Shown piece after piece: positions 13,263 through 25,725 of a DNA stretch of 64,000 nucleotides (position 1 is the first letter of the stretch; each line of letters begins with the position of its first letter). The stretch is taken from positions 124,001 through 188,000 of the forward strand of contig JAHBSK010000005.1 of assembly GCA_019639175.1 (NCBI GenBank), given 5' to 3'. The notes beneath the pieces are model-generated. The model worked only from the letters and a program-made list of their open reading frames with translations, searched no databases and was not told where the DNA came from. This DNA comes from Acidobacteriota bacterium (lineage in GTDB: Bacteria; Acidobacteriota; Blastocatellia; Pyrinomonadales; Pyrinomonadaceae). The position numbers and the translations under genes are program-made.

Positions 13263-14816
13263 ATGGCCGCAGCAAATATACATCAGATCAAAGTGACGCG
13301 TGGAACACGCGGCGGAATGCTCGTGCCCGCGTTGATCCTTTGGGCCGTGGTACTGATCGCTTTTTTTGTATTTGTTTGGGTAAGTACCGACATATCGGAA
13401 CTGTACCCCAATTTTTATATCCTGCCCTGGGTTTTACTGACCGGTGCCATTATTCTGAGTCCAAGCATTTATCTTTGGTACAAAGGGCGTTTCGATCTTT
13501 TCCATCCTCTTGTTTTTGCAGCCTGGATATACCTTTTCCCGGCATTTGTCATCGGCGGCATCATCGTGGCGTTCGGCTGGGTTGAATGGTATTTTCTGTC
13601 TTTTATTGAAGACCCGCGCTATACGCTGCCTTTGACCCTGGTGTATATCTCTGTTGGTTTTATCGGCCTTACGCTCGGATACTTTCTACCGGTTGGCCGC
13701 TGGGGGGCAGATCTCGTCTCTCCTCGACTGCCGGTTTCCTGGAACTGGCGTCCCGAACAGCTATGGATCGGAGGCTTGATACTTCTTGCACTCGGCATCG
13801 GTATAAACATACTGGGTTTTCTGCAGGGGGTACTCGGATTTCAGAGAAACATAGATATAGGCATTTTTGACGGATTACTGTATTATCTGGTCATTTTTTT
13901 CACCATGGGAACGATAGTTCTATGGATATCCATATTTTCTGTCGAGAAAAAGACCGGGACCTTTTATATAGTTCTGGCTATACTACTGCTTTTCATCCCG
14001 CTGAGGACCGCTTTTATGGGCAGCCGGGCTGGACTTCTCATAGGACTTTTGCCGATAGTGTTTGGATATTACTGCTCAGGCAGAAAACTTGATCTGAAGA
14101 CCGGCACCGTTTTCGCCGTACTCGGGGTTATTTCAGTAATAATTGGCATCGCCTACGGAACCTCATTCCGCAATTTGAAGGGAGGGGAAGGCAGTGCTGA
14201 CGCCGCCAGCTATACCGAAAAGGTCGGAGCTACCGTTGATCAGCTGATAGATATGGATACCTCCATTCTCGCGGCAGAGACCGCTCAGAGCCTTGCGAAC
14301 CGTCTTGAAAACCTGACATCAGTGGCTGTTGTCGTTTCCAATTATGAAAAGCTCGCTCCATATGAGGCAAGTTACGGGCTTGAAAATAATATAATCAACG
14401 ACCTTTACACATCCTTTATCCCTCGGTTCATTTGGGCAGACAAACCCCCGACCTCGGATGCCCGAAGCTACAGTGATCTTTACTTTTCTTATGGCGAGAA
14501 TTCGTTCGCTATTTCTCCTTTTGGTGATCTTCTGCGCAATTTTGGCGTGATCGGCATACCGCTGGGAATGCTGGTGCTTGGATTCTATCTGCGGCTGATC
14601 TATTCCTTATTGATAGAAACTCAGTCTCCGGCGATATGGAAAAAGACCGCATATTATCTCTTGCTTGGTGTCGTCTCATACGAATCGTTCTATGCTCTGA
14701 TATTTCCTTCAATCATAAGGACACTGTTCGTCCTCATTATAGGACTGATGATTCTTCGTTTCTTCTCCAGTTCGACCGTTAACACGAGTTTTCCTAAAGG
14801 AATTGCATCCAGATGA
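13263..14816 (+). CDS. O-antigen/exopolysaccharide polymerase-like membrane protein (Wzy-type)
   Basis: 517 aa, ~12 predicted transmembrane helices with a large polar loop at ~300-390 between helix groups, the general shape of Wzy polymerases, which join repeat units in the periplasm. Sequence identity within the family is low, so the call rests on topology and on position between flippase and sugar-activation genes. A 68-nt gap separates it from the methyltransferase gene; it contains a TAAAAT hexamer at 13245-13250 and a short hairpin (TTGCGG/CCGCAA, 13213-13230), so an internal promoter is possible. The stop overlaps the next ATG (ATGA). Confidence 0.78.
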   Translation: MAAANIHQIKVTRGTRGGMLVPALILWAVVLIAFFVFVWVSTDISELYPNFYILPWVLLTGAIILSPSIYLWYKGRFDLFHPLVFAAWIYLFPAFVIGGIIVAFGWVEWYFLSFIEDPRYTLPLTLVYISVGFIGLTLGYFLPVGRWGADLVSPRLPVSWNWRPEQLWIGGLILLALGIGINILGFLQGVLGFQRNIDIGIFDGLLYYLVIFFTMGTIVLWISIFSVEKKTGTFYIVLAILLLFIPLRTAFMGSRAGLLIGLLPIVFGYYCSGRKLDLKTGTVFAVLGVISVIIGIAYGTSFRNLKGGEGSADAASYTEKVGATVDQLIDMDTSILAAETAQSLANRLENLTSVAVVVSNYEKLAPYEASYGLENNIINDLYTSFIPRFIWADKPPTSDARSYSDLYFSYGENSFAISPFGDLLRNFGVIGIPLGMLVLGFYLRLIYSLLIETQSPAIWKKTAYYLLLGVVSYESFYALIFPSIIRTLFVLIIGLMILRFFSSSTVNTSFPKGIASR

Positions 14817-22346: not shown

Positions 22347-23387
22347 ATGGTTTTCACTGCGGTCATTCTATTGATTTCAGGCGGTTTGCTGTCATATCTC
22401 GGCACGCTGGCCTTTCTGCGATGGAGCAGGAAACGCGATCTTCTGGACATCCCAAACGAGCGAAGTTCCCATACTGTACCCGTTCCGCGCGGGGCCGGTC
22501 TGGTGATCGCCATTGTCTGTCTTGTCGGCTACAGCCTGGCCGGCATCTTTTTCAATGTGCCTTTTTCGTTGGTGTTTCTGGCCGCCGGTGCCGTTATCGC
22601 TTTGATCGGATGGGCGGACGATCTTTACTCAGTTCCTCGCATTTTGCGTGTCAGCATTCAGGGCATTTGCGGACTGGCTCTGATCTACGCAGTCGGCTAC
22701 TTTGACTCGGTAACATTTGGCCCAAAGACACTGGCCGTCACGCTCTGGGTATTTGGTATTGCCGTAACGTTTTGCTGGTTCATCTGGGTCGTAAATGCCT
22801 TTAATTTCATGGACGGCATTGACGGCATTGCCGCCGGAACGGGAACAGCGGCTGCTGTTTTCTGGTTGATATTCGGCTATTACTATCATGCTCTGGGCAT
22901 TGTGGTTTTTGCAGGTTTGTGCGGCGGGGCGTGTCTGGGATTTTTATTCTTTAACCGGCATCCGGCAAAGGTATTCATGGGCGATGTCGGGAGTTCATTT
23001 CTGGGATTTGCGTTTGCGGCGCTTCCGATACTGGCGTTGTCGCAATCGGATGCGGAGCGTGAAAACGTCCTTTTATTTGCCGCCGCAAGCATTTGGCCGT
23101 TTATCTTTGATACGCTGTTTACATTTGTCAGGCGGCTTCCCAAAATGGGGATCAGCGTTTGGCGGCCGCACAGATCGCATATTTATCAGGTTATGGTCGA
23201 TCACGGAATGACGCATTCACGCGTTGCCGTGATATATATAGGATGCTCCCTGGCAACAGGAGCGGCTGCATTGGGGTCGATGATGTTCCGAGGCTATCTT
23301 AGTTACGCACCGGCTGCTGCAATGGTTTTCGTTTCCGTGATACTGGTATTGTTTTATATGCGATGCAAAAAGCCGCGGTCAACTTAG
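22347..23387 (+). CDS. Undecaprenyl-phosphate sugar-1-phosphate transferase (WecA/WbpL-like)
   Basis: 346 aa polytopic protein of the MraY/WecA family, ~10 helices. It has the early RSSHTVPVPRGAGLVI motif, IGWADDLYSVPRILR (the DD pair), NAFNFMDGIDGIAAG (NxxNxxDGIDG) and the cytoplasmic HRSHIYQ histidine loop. These enzymes start glycan assembly by putting a sugar-1-phosphate, usually GlcNAc- or FucNAc/QuiNAc-type, on undecaprenyl phosphate. It is the last classical polysaccharide gene in the cluster, and a WbpL-like role fits the neighbours. A 41-nt gap leads to the HprK-like gene. Confidence 0.93.
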   Translation: MVFTAVILLISGGLLSYLGTLAFLRWSRKRDLLDIPNERSSHTVPVPRGAGLVIAIVCLVGYSLAGIFFNVPFSLVFLAAGAVIALIGWADDLYSVPRILRVSIQGICGLALIYAVGYFDSVTFGPKTLAVTLWVFGIAVTFCWFIWVVNAFNFMDGIDGIAAGTGTAAAVFWLIFGYYYHALGIVVFAGLCGGACLGFLFFNRHPAKVFMGDVGSSFLGFAFAALPILALSQSDAERENVLLFAAASIWPFIFDTLFTFVRRLPKMGISVWRPHRSHIYQVMVDHGMTHSRVAVIYIGCSLATGAAALGSMMFRGYLSYAPAAAMVFVSVILVLFYMRCKKPRST

Positions 23388-23428: not shown

Positions 23429-24289
23429 ATGGATCAAAATTTTGAACACGCATTTGTTATGGAGTCGTTCGGCGTCCGCATCCGTATAGAAAGCAATGAT
23501 GAAGAACTTCTGACGGATGCCGCTGAAAACCTTCGCTGGGCCTTTGCAGAAAAAATGGAAATTTCTGACGATGACGGAGATGTTGCCCTCTCATTTGGGC
23601 TTGAAAAGAGCGGAAAGGAATTCATTCTTTACAGAGACGGTGAATATTTCTCAAAAGGCGAGATAAAAAAAATATTTCTGAAATATATGAATTCGGTCGT
23701 CAGAAACCGCGTTGCCGAATTTGCACCGGATCATACTTTCATTCATGCCGGTTCGGTGGGATGGAAGGGAAGATCGTTTATCTTTCCCGCCAAAAGCTTT
23801 AAAGGAAAATCGACGCTGGTAAGCGAATTGGTAAAGCTTGGGGCCGATTATTACTCCGATGAATATGCCGTTATTGATGATAATGGCCTGAATCACCCTT
23901 TTCCGAGGCCGCTTTCATTGAGAACCGGCGAAGGGAAGGACCTCAGAGAAGATGAGGTGCCGGTGGCGGAAATAAACGGCATCGCGGGAACTGAACCGAT
24001 ACCCATAGGCATGGTGGTTTTGACTGAATTTGACCCCGAGTCAGCGGAACAACTCCGCCGACTCACCACCGGCGAAGGCATCCTTGAAACGCTGGTTCAC
24101 ACGATACCTTTTGCGCGTGACCCGGAAACTTCGTTAAAACGCTTGAAATCATCCTTGAACCGTGCAATAATCCTGAAAGGTATCAGAGGTGACGCTAAAG
24201 ATTTTGCGCTCACTGTTTTATCTAATATTGATAACAACCTGGACTCTGAACTAATATCGGAGTCATTTTTTGGAGGAGATAATGAATAA
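23429..24289 (+). CDS. HPr kinase-like (HprK-related) kinase
   Basis: 286 aa. Residues ~104-150 match the HprK-fold ATPase: FIHAGSVGWKGRSFIFPAKSFKGKSTL with a P-loop at ~121-129 (Ala at the first Gly position, GKST intact), then the metal-binding SDEYAVID. The N-terminal ~95 residues resemble no family I know. HprK-related kinases of this type sit beside PqqD-like and nucleotidyltransferase genes in exopolysaccharide clusters and in lasso-peptide clusters such as paeninodin, where they phosphorylate the peptide. Here the next gene (8-nt overlap) is a PqqD fusion, a natural candidate substrate. A TAAAAT at 23417-23422 lies just upstream. The function is inferred. Confidence 0.8.
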   Translation: MDQNFEHAFVMESFGVRIRIESNDEELLTDAAENLRWAFAEKMEISDDDGDVALSFGLEKSGKEFILYRDGEYFSKGEIKKIFLKYMNSVVRNRVAEFAPDHTFIHAGSVGWKGRSFIFPAKSFKGKSTLVSELVKLGADYYSDEYAVIDDNGLNHPFPRPLSLRTGEGKDLREDEVPVAEINGIAGTEPIPIGMVVLTEFDPESAEQLRRLTTGEGILETLVHTIPFARDPETSLKRLKSSLNRAIILKGIRGDAKDFALTVLSNIDNNLDSELISESFFGGDNE

Positions 24290-24764
24290 CCCGCAGTATC
24301 CCGTTGCTCGCAGCACGAACCTGGTGGTTCAGGAAGTGCCGAACGAGGTTCTAATTTTTGATATTGATACAAACAAGGCGCATTGTTTAAATAAAACCGC
24401 AGCTTTGGTATGGAAGTCATGTGACGGAAAAAGATCTGTCAGTGAGATCGCAGAATTTGTCGGCAGCGAAACAGGGGAGCAGGTTTCGGACGACCTTGTA
24501 TGGCTTGCAATTGATCAGCTTAACGAAACAAATCTGCTTGAAGATCAAGTAACAGTAGATTTTAAAGGACAGTCCCGCCGTGATGCACTGAAAAAGATCG
24601 GTTTGGCATCCGTGATCGCTTTGCCGATAGTCGCATCACTTGCCGCACCGCAGAATGCACTGGCGAATATGTCTTGCGGTTGTATAACCATCACGGACTG
24701 TAATCCATTAGATGGATGCCCAACAAATAATTGTGGTCAAGACGTTAGCGGACTTTGTAGATAG
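24282..24764 (+). CDS. PqqD domain fused to a Tat-like segment and a six-cysteine C-terminal tail
   Basis: 160 aa from ATG 24282 (GGAGGA at 24272-24277; the start overlaps the previous stop as ATGAATAA). Residues 1-~92 form a PqqD/RRE-like domain (VLIFDIDTNKAHCLNKTAALVW, GKRSVSEIAEFVG). At 98-128 comes SRRDALKK, a hydrophobic run (~107-122) and an AxA site (ALA, 126-128), i.e. a Tat-type signal in mid-protein. The last 31 residues hold six cysteines at 132, 134, 140, 146, 151 and 159. PqqD domains normally bind precursor peptides for maturation enzymes; here recognition domain, export-like segment and core-like tail are one chain. It could instead be a membrane-anchored regulator. Confidence 0.85.
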   Translation: MNNPQYPVARSTNLVVQEVPNEVLIFDIDTNKAHCLNKTAALVWKSCDGKRSVSEIAEFVGSETGEQVSDDLVWLAIDQLNETNLLEDQVTVDFKGQSRRDALKKIGLASVIALPIVASLAAPQNALANMSCGCITITDCNPLDGCPTNNCGQDVSGLCR

Positions 24765-24792
24765 TGTAGCCAAATAAAACTTACTGAATTTT

Positions 24793-24819
24793 GGCGGGAG
24801 AATGTCTTGTTCTTCCGCC
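24793..24819 (+). terminator. Stem-loop after the PqqD-fusion gene (possible attenuator)
   Basis: Ten-base arms GGCGGGAGAA (24793-24802) and TTCTTCCGCC (24810-24819) pair throughout with one G-U, around a 7-nt loop. Only a weak T-rich run (ATTTCATT) follows, so read-through is likely. It lies 28 nt after the stop of the PqqD gene and covers the first possible ATG (24802) of the nucleotidyltransferase-like gene, so it could limit expression of that gene. Confidence 0.6.
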
Positions 24820-25725
24820 ATTTCATTGTGGACAATCAAGTTGATCGACGACATTAAGATAAGTTCAGCGGAACTTATGTTCGCTACTCTCGAAAGGAAG
24901 GCATTCGAGGTAAAGATCGCTGAATACACATCGTTACTTCAGCGAAACGGTATCAACTCTCTTACTTTTAAAGGCTGGCTCGCCGCAAATAATTATCCTG
25001 AAACTCATTATCGTCAATACACTGACATAGACTTGGCTGTTGCTCCCGAATACTATGATCGGGCGATTGCGCTGATCCGGGCAGCTAAACCGAAAGGCAT
25101 CGCGGTCGATCTTCACAAAGGCTTTCGACATCTCGACAGGCTTTCGTGGGAGCAGATATTCTCACGCAGCCAAACGGTCATCCTCAACAATACTGAGGTT
25201 CGCGTTCCGTGTCCTGAAGATCACCTGCGTATAATGTGTGTTCATTGGCTGACCGACGGCGGTGAGTATAAACATAGGCTGTGGGACATTTATTACGCGG
25301 TCGCAAATCGCCCTGATGATTTCGACTGGGACAAATGTCTGCAACCCGTTAGCGCCGTTCGGCAGGAATGGGTGATCACCTGCATCGGCCTTGCCCATCG
25401 CTATCTCGGCCTTGAGATAGAAGACCTGCCATTTGCCGAAAGGGCAAAAGATCTGCCTGAATGGCTCACGAAACGCCTCGAATACGAATGGGAGAACAGA
25501 GTTCCGCTTCGTCCTTTGAGGATAGTTTATCGTGACCCGTCTCTTTTGATACAACAATTGAGAAAGCGTTTTCCGCCCAACCCGATCTATTCGACCATTG
25601 ATATGGAAGGCTCCTTTGCAAGTCGGACAAGGTTCTTCTATCATCTCGGTAGTATGCTGAAACGATCCCGAAACACAGTCAGGGATTTTTACCACATTAT
25701 CCGGCATCGCTCCTCACGGAAATAA
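24802..25725 (+). CDS. Nucleotidyltransferase-like protein (NTP_transf_5 type)
   Basis: 307 aa from ATG 24802. The core LLQRNGINSLTFKGWLAA, then YRQYTDIDLAV (DxD at 75-77) and VDLHKGF is the minimal nucleotidyltransferase signature of the uncharacterised PF14907-like family, which often accompanies PqqD and HprK-like genes in polysaccharide clusters. The start is uncertain: 24802 lies inside a stem-loop, and TTG 24826, TTG 24841 or ATG 24877 are in frame and would trim only poorly conserved residues. The N-terminal part before the LKG-type motif is shorter than usual for the family. Its stop overlaps the tsaB ATG (TAATG). Target unknown; modification of the PqqD-linked peptide or of a sugar carrier is conjecture. 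Confidence 0.75.
   Translation: MSCSSAISLWTIKLIDDIKISSAELMFATLERKAFEVKIAEYTSLLQRNGINSLTFKGWLAANNYPETHYRQYTDIDLAVAPEYYDRAIALIRAAKPKGIAVDLHKGFRHLDRLSWEQIFSRSQTVILNNTEVRVPCPEDHLRIMCVHWLTDGGEYKHRLWDIYYAVANRPDDFDWDKCLQPVSAVRQEWVITCIGLAHRYLGLEIEDLPFAERAKDLPEWLTKRLEYEWENRVPLRPLRIVYRDPSLLIQQLRKRFPPNPIYSTIDMEGSFASRTRFFYHLGSMLKRSRNTVRDFYHIIRHRSSRK

Follow-up and report, generated by a model that had tools for sequence, protein, structure and literature searches.

The DNA analyzed here (the window) is a stretch of 64,000 nucleotides from an Acidobacteriota bacterium (assembly GCA_019639175.1, contig JAHBSK010000005.1, positions 124,001 to 188,000). It harbors three consecutive genes, all on the forward strand, encoding an HprK-like kinase (286 residues; 23429..24289), a PqqD-type protein extended by a twin-arginine translocation (Tat)-type segment and a tail containing six cysteines (160 residues; 24282..24764), and a nucleotidyltransferase-like protein of the NTP_transf_5 family (307 residues; 24802..25725). 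An original prediction, made from the letters of the sequence, had described these overlapping or near-adjacent genes as a possible peptide-maturation module, and the open reading frames (ORFs) bear out the gene arrangement. The kinase was assigned from its ORF and from an AlphaFold2 (AF2) model displaying the PEPCK/HprK fold. The nucleotidyltransferase was assigned from the PF14907 profile and an alignment. The PqqD-Tat-Cys6 protein, a predicted self-guided exported peptide precursor, was delineated from its ORF, the PF05402 profile, and an alignment of homologues. Its gene, referred to below as the peptide gene, starts at ATG 24282 and overlaps the kinase gene by 8 nucleotides. A longer form starting at TTG 24270 was rejected as this start was merely the choice of the program listing the ORFs.

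The PqqD-Tat-Cys6 protein contains every element previously described (PqqD domain, SRRDALKK motif, hydrophobic segment with an ALA site, and six-cysteine tail of 32 residues), present to the base. Residues 3-92 (24288..24557) form a PqqD domain, or RRE, for recognition element of the ribosomally synthesized and post-translationally modified peptides (RiPPs). The PF05402 score was above the Pfam gathering threshold (32.1 bits for a cut-off of 23.4), and the structure model of this part was closest, with respect to the fold only, to TbiB1 and lasso-peptide B1 proteins. Profile score and fold both identify an RRE/PqqD domain, and the comparison with RRE structures called for by the prediction returned lasso RREs as the nearest neighbors. 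The absence of a fold from the neighbor lists (VIA-align) carries no weight. Searches of PDB sequences with the peptide, the kinase, the nucleotidyltransferase, or their alignments (phmmer and hmmsearch) provided nothing convincing, the best related entry being PqqC/D (5sxy_A; E 0.22). The Tat-type segment (residues 98-128; 24573..24665) comprises the motif S98-R99-R100-D-A-L-K-K105, a hydrophobic stretch, and a predicted cleavage site, A126-L-A128. It is followed by a hypervariable tail (residues 129-160; 24666..24761) with cysteines at positions 132, 134, 140, 146, 151, and 159.

Homologues of the PqqD-Tat-Cys6 protein were numerous (1742 at E ≤ 1e-3). All of the best 120 of the 1742 were at least 59% identical and contained the twin arginine and at least six tail cysteines; these 120 sequences, as well as the best 120 of 886 retrieved for a sister family described below, are closely related among themselves. 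In an alignment of 84 homologues, R99, R100, A128, C132, C134, C146, and C159 were invariant. The distribution of the family was determined in a sample of 104 genomes of the window's class with a completeness of at least 90%, these genomes being related to one another. The family was present in 68 of the 104 genomes, representing 25 of 41 genera, and in 31 of 40 relatives including the window's own genome. One genome of the class (G055) contained 36 peptide matches, corresponding to all 36 scored of 48 candidates, some of which were partial. Other genomes of the class contained up to seven matches, and tandem copies occur. In the phylum, 80 of 395 genomes matched, the class included, many of the weaker matches being PqqD proteins without a tail. 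Full-length members outside the class were sporadic. Among 14 stretches surveyed, two (L229 and L232) harbored both enzymes, one (L230) NTP_transf_5 and a Wzz gene, and one (L233) the kinase; in two others (L228 and L231) the peptide gene was lost in simple gene calling. The architecture is therefore widespread and no oddity of one genome, and the Tat motif and cysteine tail are kept in homologues of the window's class, as the original prediction required. In other classes, three PqqD-RR proteins had tails made of Thr/Pro/Gly repeats or poly-Thr, which is suggestive of glycosylation. The first of these (L234) adjoins HprK and NTP_transf_5 genes, the second (L235) adjoins HprK, and neither enzyme was called near the third (L238).

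The twin arginine was retained in 256 of 257 ORFs, the sole exception being truncated; the profile used to select these ORFs covers the RR region itself. Of the 257, four were set aside (three fragments with RR and the truncated ORF, which lacks RR and the tail), and 61 non-redundant proteins were drawn from the remaining 253, so that finding RR in 61 of 61 follows from the selection. Among these 61, position +5 was Lys in 32 and Arg in 20, and position +6 was Lys in 36 and Arg in 13. The arginine pair is constant while the following basic positions mix Lys and Arg, a pattern better explained by a Tat motif than by simple positive charge. TatC is encoded in the window's genome.

The tail evolves differently from the rest of the protein. 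In the alignment of 84 homologues, mean pairwise identity was 0.236 for the non-cysteine positions of the tail, versus 0.683 for the RRE and 68% for the signal. The number of nonsynonymous substitutions per site (dN), calculated for the two most similar distinct pairs, was 0.34 and 0.59 for the tail, versus 0.04 for the leader. The cysteines were present in even numbers in all 119 listed homologues (6, 8, or 10) and in 132 of 134 tails from the loci (4 to 14). Among the non-redundant proteins, 60 of 61 tails had an even number of cysteines; the region preceding RR in the same proteins had an even number in 44 cases and an odd number in 17. An even number is what paired disulfides would require. 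Cysteine accounts for 14% of tail residues in this set and histidine for 0.4%. A loose knottin-like pattern (CXnCXnCCXnCXnC) fits 15 of the 61 tails. The tail of the window has a different arrangement (CxC...C...C...C...C) that does not match the inhibitor cystine knot (ICK) spacing. Beside one peptide copy, a single protein combines MauE and thioredoxin-like domains (L115:5761-7311, with a cluster mate in L097); this fusion may form the disulfides of the tails.

Ser131 (24672..24674), located 32 residues past R99, is the predicted phospho-acceptor, based on conservation at the same offset in two families. Among the best 120 of the 1742 homologues, offset 32 from the first arginine was a serine in 119 proteins, and positions +30, +31, and +34 were variable. 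The second family was found from a locus (L236) of genome G396 and has members under names including Tunturiibacter and Edaphobacter. These proteins display a PqqD domain, a canonical [ST]RRxFL motif (with Phe in 96 of 120), an AxA site, and Pro-rich tails, 88 of 120 lacking any cysteine. Serine was found at the same offset in 115 of 117 Pro-rich-tailed proteins (among the best 120 of 886) and in 34 of 34 rows of a diverse alignment of this sister family. Elsewhere in the window's genome, eight places with a Tat motif above the cut-off were scored; none of them has serine at offset 32, and one has threonine. The cysteine tail put forward in the original prediction is thus kept in homologues of the class but is not the defining feature, since the tails of the sister family are mostly cysteine-free. 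The defining feature is the RRE-Tat-Ser scaffold.

The nucleotidyltransferase scored 68.1 bits with PF14907 for a gathering cut-off of 31.2. Asp residues D75, D77, and D103, which we take to be catalytic, were invariant across 26 aligned NTP_transf_5 sequences. The kinase had no Pfam match at E 0.1. Its AF2 model (predicted local distance difference test score, pLDDT, of 88.6) matches PEPCK and HprK structures. Motif residues were located at H106 (23744-23746), in the P-loop (residues 120-128; 23786-23812), and at D144/E145 (23858-23863), with the spacing of lasso-peptide kinases. The residues H(K-21), G(K-1), K, S/T(K+1), and D(K+17) were present in 60 of 60 kinase relatives and D/E(K+18) in 59. 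These residues match the spacing of the H-G-G-G-K-S-D-D motif given for BsfK in PMC10368454. 

Co-occurrence of the three genes was evaluated in the 104 genomes of the class, with a threshold of 1e-4 applied to peptide matches and of 1e-6 to matches of the two enzymes. The kinase was detected in all 68 genomes containing the peptide family and in 2 of the 36 genomes lacking it (Fisher 2e-25; genomes related). NTP_transf_5 was detected in 65 of the 68 (missing in G058, G037, and G107) and in 5 of the 36 (Fisher 7e-18, with the same reservation). Co-occurrence of the trio, on which the prediction had been made to depend, is therefore far beyond chance in this sample. Peptide and kinase were jointly missing in some genomes of otherwise positive genera (g18, g30, and g32), a pattern suggestive of joint loss or gain on several occasions. 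The order of the trio was conserved in 19 of 23 loci of the same genus. The remaining four comprised two loci truncated on one side by a contig end, one without a nearby NTP_transf_5 gene, and one with the peptide gene alone. More broadly, the kinase and nucleotidyltransferase genes were often unlinked from the peptide genes. In 80 fetched stretches, many of which come from the same genomes (L153 and L173 lost the peptide gene in simple gene calling), NTP_transf_5 was found within four genes of a copy in 30 and HprK in 25. In G055, the single kinase match was located in a 14-kb stretch without peptide match, and the NTP_transf_5 match was weak and partial. A short PqqD gene between HprK and NTP_transf_5 was considered at unlinked loci (G031, G035, G084, and others) and dismissed, the DNA giving no PqqD match. 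Association with the kinase extended to the sister family. Within the taxonomic family to which G396 belongs, 7 of 150 genomes contained Pro-tail peptides; the kinase was present in six of the seven and in 4 of the 143 others. In all six, the kinase and Pro-tail peptide genes were within 1 kb of each other, and the seventh copy was 228 bases from a contig end. In the class sample, Pro-tail peptides were present in 2 of 101 genomes; both of these contained the kinase, which is unlinked in G401, as did 2 of the 99 others. NTP_transf_5 adjoins the sister-family gene at L236 and L237, the two loci checked.

From the observed architecture and spread, the twin arginine, the serine, the even cysteine number, the conserved enzyme residues, and the co-occurrence of kinase and peptide in genomes, we infer with moderate confidence that the protein encoded by 24282-24764 is a self-guided secreted-peptide precursor phosphorylated at Ser131 by its HprK-like partner before export. 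The RRE domain would recruit the kinase in cis, by analogy with BsfB1, a separate RRE that stimulates BsfK in a lasso system, and the kinase would phosphorylate Ser131 at the head of the tail. The NTP_transf_5 protein may then extend the phosphate with a hexose or a nucleotide, a reaction that PsmN carries out, or seems to carry out, in pseudomycoidin. The protein would be exported by Tat and cleaved by signal peptidase after A128, leaving the RRE and the signal behind, and the cysteines would pair as disulfides outside the cytoplasm. With the RRE and the putative substrate joined in one chain, recognition would be intramolecular and the tail free to vary. Because the enzymes are often unlinked, and because G055 has 36 precursor matches for one kinase match, each enzyme would serve many tails in trans. 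The original prediction is partly supported; its putative parts are action of the kinase and nucleotidyltransferase on the tail, export by Tat, and any covalent link to the glycan.

Several observations weigh against this proposal. The match of the Tat-type segment to TIGR01409 was borderline (13.6 bits in one scan and 16.1 in another, or 16.7 with neighbors, which was taken as attaining the cut-off of 16.7). AxA was found in 37 of the 61 non-redundant proteins, versus 8 of 61 in the control. A Tat signal located internally, behind a folded domain of 97 residues, is unusual, and both the signal and the tail were modelled at low confidence. The number of synonymous substitutions (dS) was saturated in the pairs used to compare tail and leader, and positive selection (dN/dS > 1) is not claimed. 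Cysteine parity had two exceptions, a tail with 7 cysteines (L131) and a short tail with 3 (L110). In the kinase relatives, two other P-loop glycines of BsfK were not kept, K-6 being Gly in 41 and Ala in 19, and K-3 being Phe or Tyr in 39 of 60 and Gly in 7. The kinase occurred without the peptide family in G054 (match at a contig start) and G083 (match with a stop), as did NTP_transf_5 in G077, G054, G104, G026, and G029. The serine itself was less constant in diverse samples. Of nine sister copies fetched from genomes, seven had serine at offset 32, one had it one place later, and one was unscored. In a diverse set of Cys-tailed proteins from the loci, serine was found at offset 32 in 15 of 52 and at offset 31 in 24 of 52. 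Ser or Thr directly preceded the first cysteine in 44 of the 61 non-redundant proteins (39 Ser and 5 Thr), whereas later cysteines were preceded by Ser in 19 and by Thr in 42 of 376 cases. In the diverse set, the Ser/Thr residue is anchored to the first cysteine and its position slides. Ser131 may also be kept for another reason, such as O-glycosylation or export.

The three genes were originally placed at the end of a polysaccharide cluster. This holds for function, the cluster extending from Poly_export (4369) through a Wzz-type chain-length protein (5347), glycosyltransferases, and sugar epimerases to a gene for a WecA-like polyprenyl-phosphate sugar transferase (22347..23387, forward strand; PF00953, with a sub-threshold TIGR02380 match). 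However, tsaB, overlapped by one base by the nucleotidyltransferase ORF, and then rimI directly follow. Gene-order comparison indicated that the WecA-like gene is a conserved upstream neighbor within the genus. A 517-residue protein encoded inside the cluster (13263-14816) had no Pfam match at E 0.1. Named relatives are from Acidobacteria, mostly metagenome-assembled genomes of Pyrinomonadaceae or Blastocatellia.

Each neighbor cluster at other loci takes its annotation from a single scanned member, or from two in the case of the oxygenases. A cluster near copies in seven stretches had a Wzy_C ligase as scanned member, another in three stretches had Poly_export, and Wzz genes were found at L230 and L231. 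Genes for 2OG-Fe(II) oxygenases (2OG, 2-oxoglutarate) lie beside PqqD-Tat-Cys genes in three stretches of G055 (L097, L098, and L176) and alternate with them in L097 and L098, as if they hydroxylated the G055 peptides. A PrmA/PRMT-like methyltransferase gene is located between PqqD-Tat-Cys and HprK-like genes (L129:6199-7260, equivalent to L062:10639-11700) and has cluster mates in three more stretches. A large gene cluster near copies in 13 stretches has as scanned member a C25-family (gingipain-like) peptidase (L127:1537-4602), which may be a processing enzyme or an unrelated secreted protein. Proteins of 420-450 residues are encoded near several copies (L113:5014-6294, L109:293-1645, L110, and L136); that of L113 had a weak C-terminal PqqD-like match (E 0.009) and that of L109 had no Pfam match.

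Alternative explanations differ in the fate of the tail and in the role of the enzymes. The protein could be a plain secreted disulfide-rich mini-protein with the PqqD part acting as a pro-domain or docking module. The kinase would then leave the tail unmodified and target the RRE part or some other protein. The even cysteine parity and the loose ICK-like spacing of 15 of 61 tails are consistent with a disulfide mini-protein requiring no further modification, and the kinase gene of G055 is not beside a peptide gene. However, presence of the kinase tracks the peptide family almost perfectly, and the serine occupies the equivalent position in the sister family, in which 88 of 120 tails are cysteine-free. 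We regard this possibility as serious but improbable. It is less probable still that the signal is an uncleaved anchor, with the RRE inside and the cysteine tail outside, the protein being a sensor in the membrane, or a regulator, that governs polysaccharide synthesis together with both enzymes. The recurrence of polysaccharide genes nearby (the window cluster, the Wzy_C and Poly_export clusters, and Wzz at L230 and L231) is in favor of such a role, but many copies have no recognized polysaccharide neighbor, few neighbors being annotated. Hypervariable tails and many paralogues are unsuited to a regulator, and enrichment in AxA weighs against this explanation.

Two further explanations have little weight. 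Binding of copper or zinc by the tails, in place of disulfides, would account for their high cysteine content (14% of residues) but is very unlikely in view of the near-strict even parity from 4 to 14 cysteines, the scarcity of histidine, and the disulfide-type MauE-thioredoxin fusion beside one copy. The locus could also be a remnant or relative of a lasso cluster, a threaded lasso being made from the tail, since the RRE, kinase, and nucleotidyltransferase correspond to the B1, K, and N parts of bsf and related clusters. This is the least probable explanation because the precursor is fused to the RRE and to a Tat signal, and because neither cyclase nor B2 was found in the Pfam-scanned neighbors, which are part of the genes. 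For the phosphorylated-precursor proposal, the weakest part is the covalent link to a glycan, since the enzymes are often unlinked and many copies lack a recognized polysaccharide neighbor; gene neighborhood is what supports it. In its fullest form, which we consider doubtful as a whole, the proposal would define a new class of ribosomal secreted peptides of Acidobacteriota. The precursor and RRE would be a single chain, and a single kinase and NTP_transf_5 protein would serve many precursors, attaching a phosphate-sugar or phosphate-nucleotide group to the invariant serine before Tat export. In polysaccharide loci, a disulfide-knotted or Pro-rich peptide would carry a phospho-sugar that primes or anchors a glycan at the surface. 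If the proposal is correct, a single kinase would suffice for the dozens of exported peptides of one genome, which would be rich in disulfides and possibly phosphoglycosylated, and this would be a new route to secreted peptides. A concrete candidate substrate and residue, Ser131, would also become available for NTP_transf_5 and for distant HprK-like proteins.

Several known systems share part of these features. The HPr-rel-A system also pairs a kinase (TIGR04352) with a PqqD protein (TIGR04353, PqqD_rel_X). The kinase of the window matched TIGR04352 below threshold (41.1 bits for a cut-off of 200; 42.1, 51.1, and 52.8 bits for relatives), neither the kinase nor the nucleotidyltransferase had an NCBIfam match above its cut-off, and TIGR04353 did not match the window protein at E 1. 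We found no description of the present architecture or of the HPr-rel-A system in the open-licence PubMed Central (PMC) literature, a statement that is confined to that literature. Bufferin-type RiPPs are Cys-rich ribosomal peptides with an export signal and modified cysteines. They differ from the present proteins, which have an RRE in the precursor, a Tat rather than a Sec signal, and no DUF692/MNIO gene among the Pfam-scanned neighbors. Knottins resemble the 15 tails fitting the loose pattern and not the tail of the window, a comparison drawn from sequence alone. RiPP clusters have been reported in Pyrinomonadaceae in a paper on the Atacama (PMC11520301), in which the terms RRE and PqqD are absent.

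The closest likeness is to the tailoring of lasso peptides (paeninodin PadeK, pseudomycoidin PsmK/PsmN, and bsf BsfK/BsfB1/BsfN). Phosphorylation of lasso peptides by HprK-like kinases, invoked in the original prediction, is documented in PMC10368454, according to which BsfK phosphorylates Ser3 of BsfA, BsfB1 greatly accelerates the reaction, and BsfN has no known role. PsmN is presented in PMC9266682 as responsible for the hexoses on phospho-Ser in pseudomycoidin, so that the nucleotidyltransferase of such clusters either adds the hexoses or readies the phospho-serine for them. Shared features include a B1-type RRE, an HprK-like kinase with most motif residues at the same spacing, an adjoining nucleotidyltransferase gene, and an acceptor serine that, in BsfA, is near the start of the core. 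Here, in contrast, the enzymes are often unlinked, the kinase is unmatched by Pfam, a Tat-type signal replaces the ATP-binding cassette (ABC) exporter, and the tails are Cys-rich or Pro-rich. No asparagine-synthase-like cyclase or transglutaminase-like B2 protein was found in the Pfam-scanned neighbors, which cover part of the genes. In RRE-Finder (2020) and a 2025 structure-based survey, RREs are described as discrete proteins or as portions of larger biosynthetic proteins. Unlike these described RREs, the RRE of the window is fused to its apparent substrate. Lasso peptides derive from a separate short precursor with a leader and a core, and the candidate substrate is here in one chain with the RRE. 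Because its predicted tailoring is lasso-like but its fused precursor falls outside the lasso definition, we assign the system to RRE-guided peptide maturation, of which it would be a new variant.

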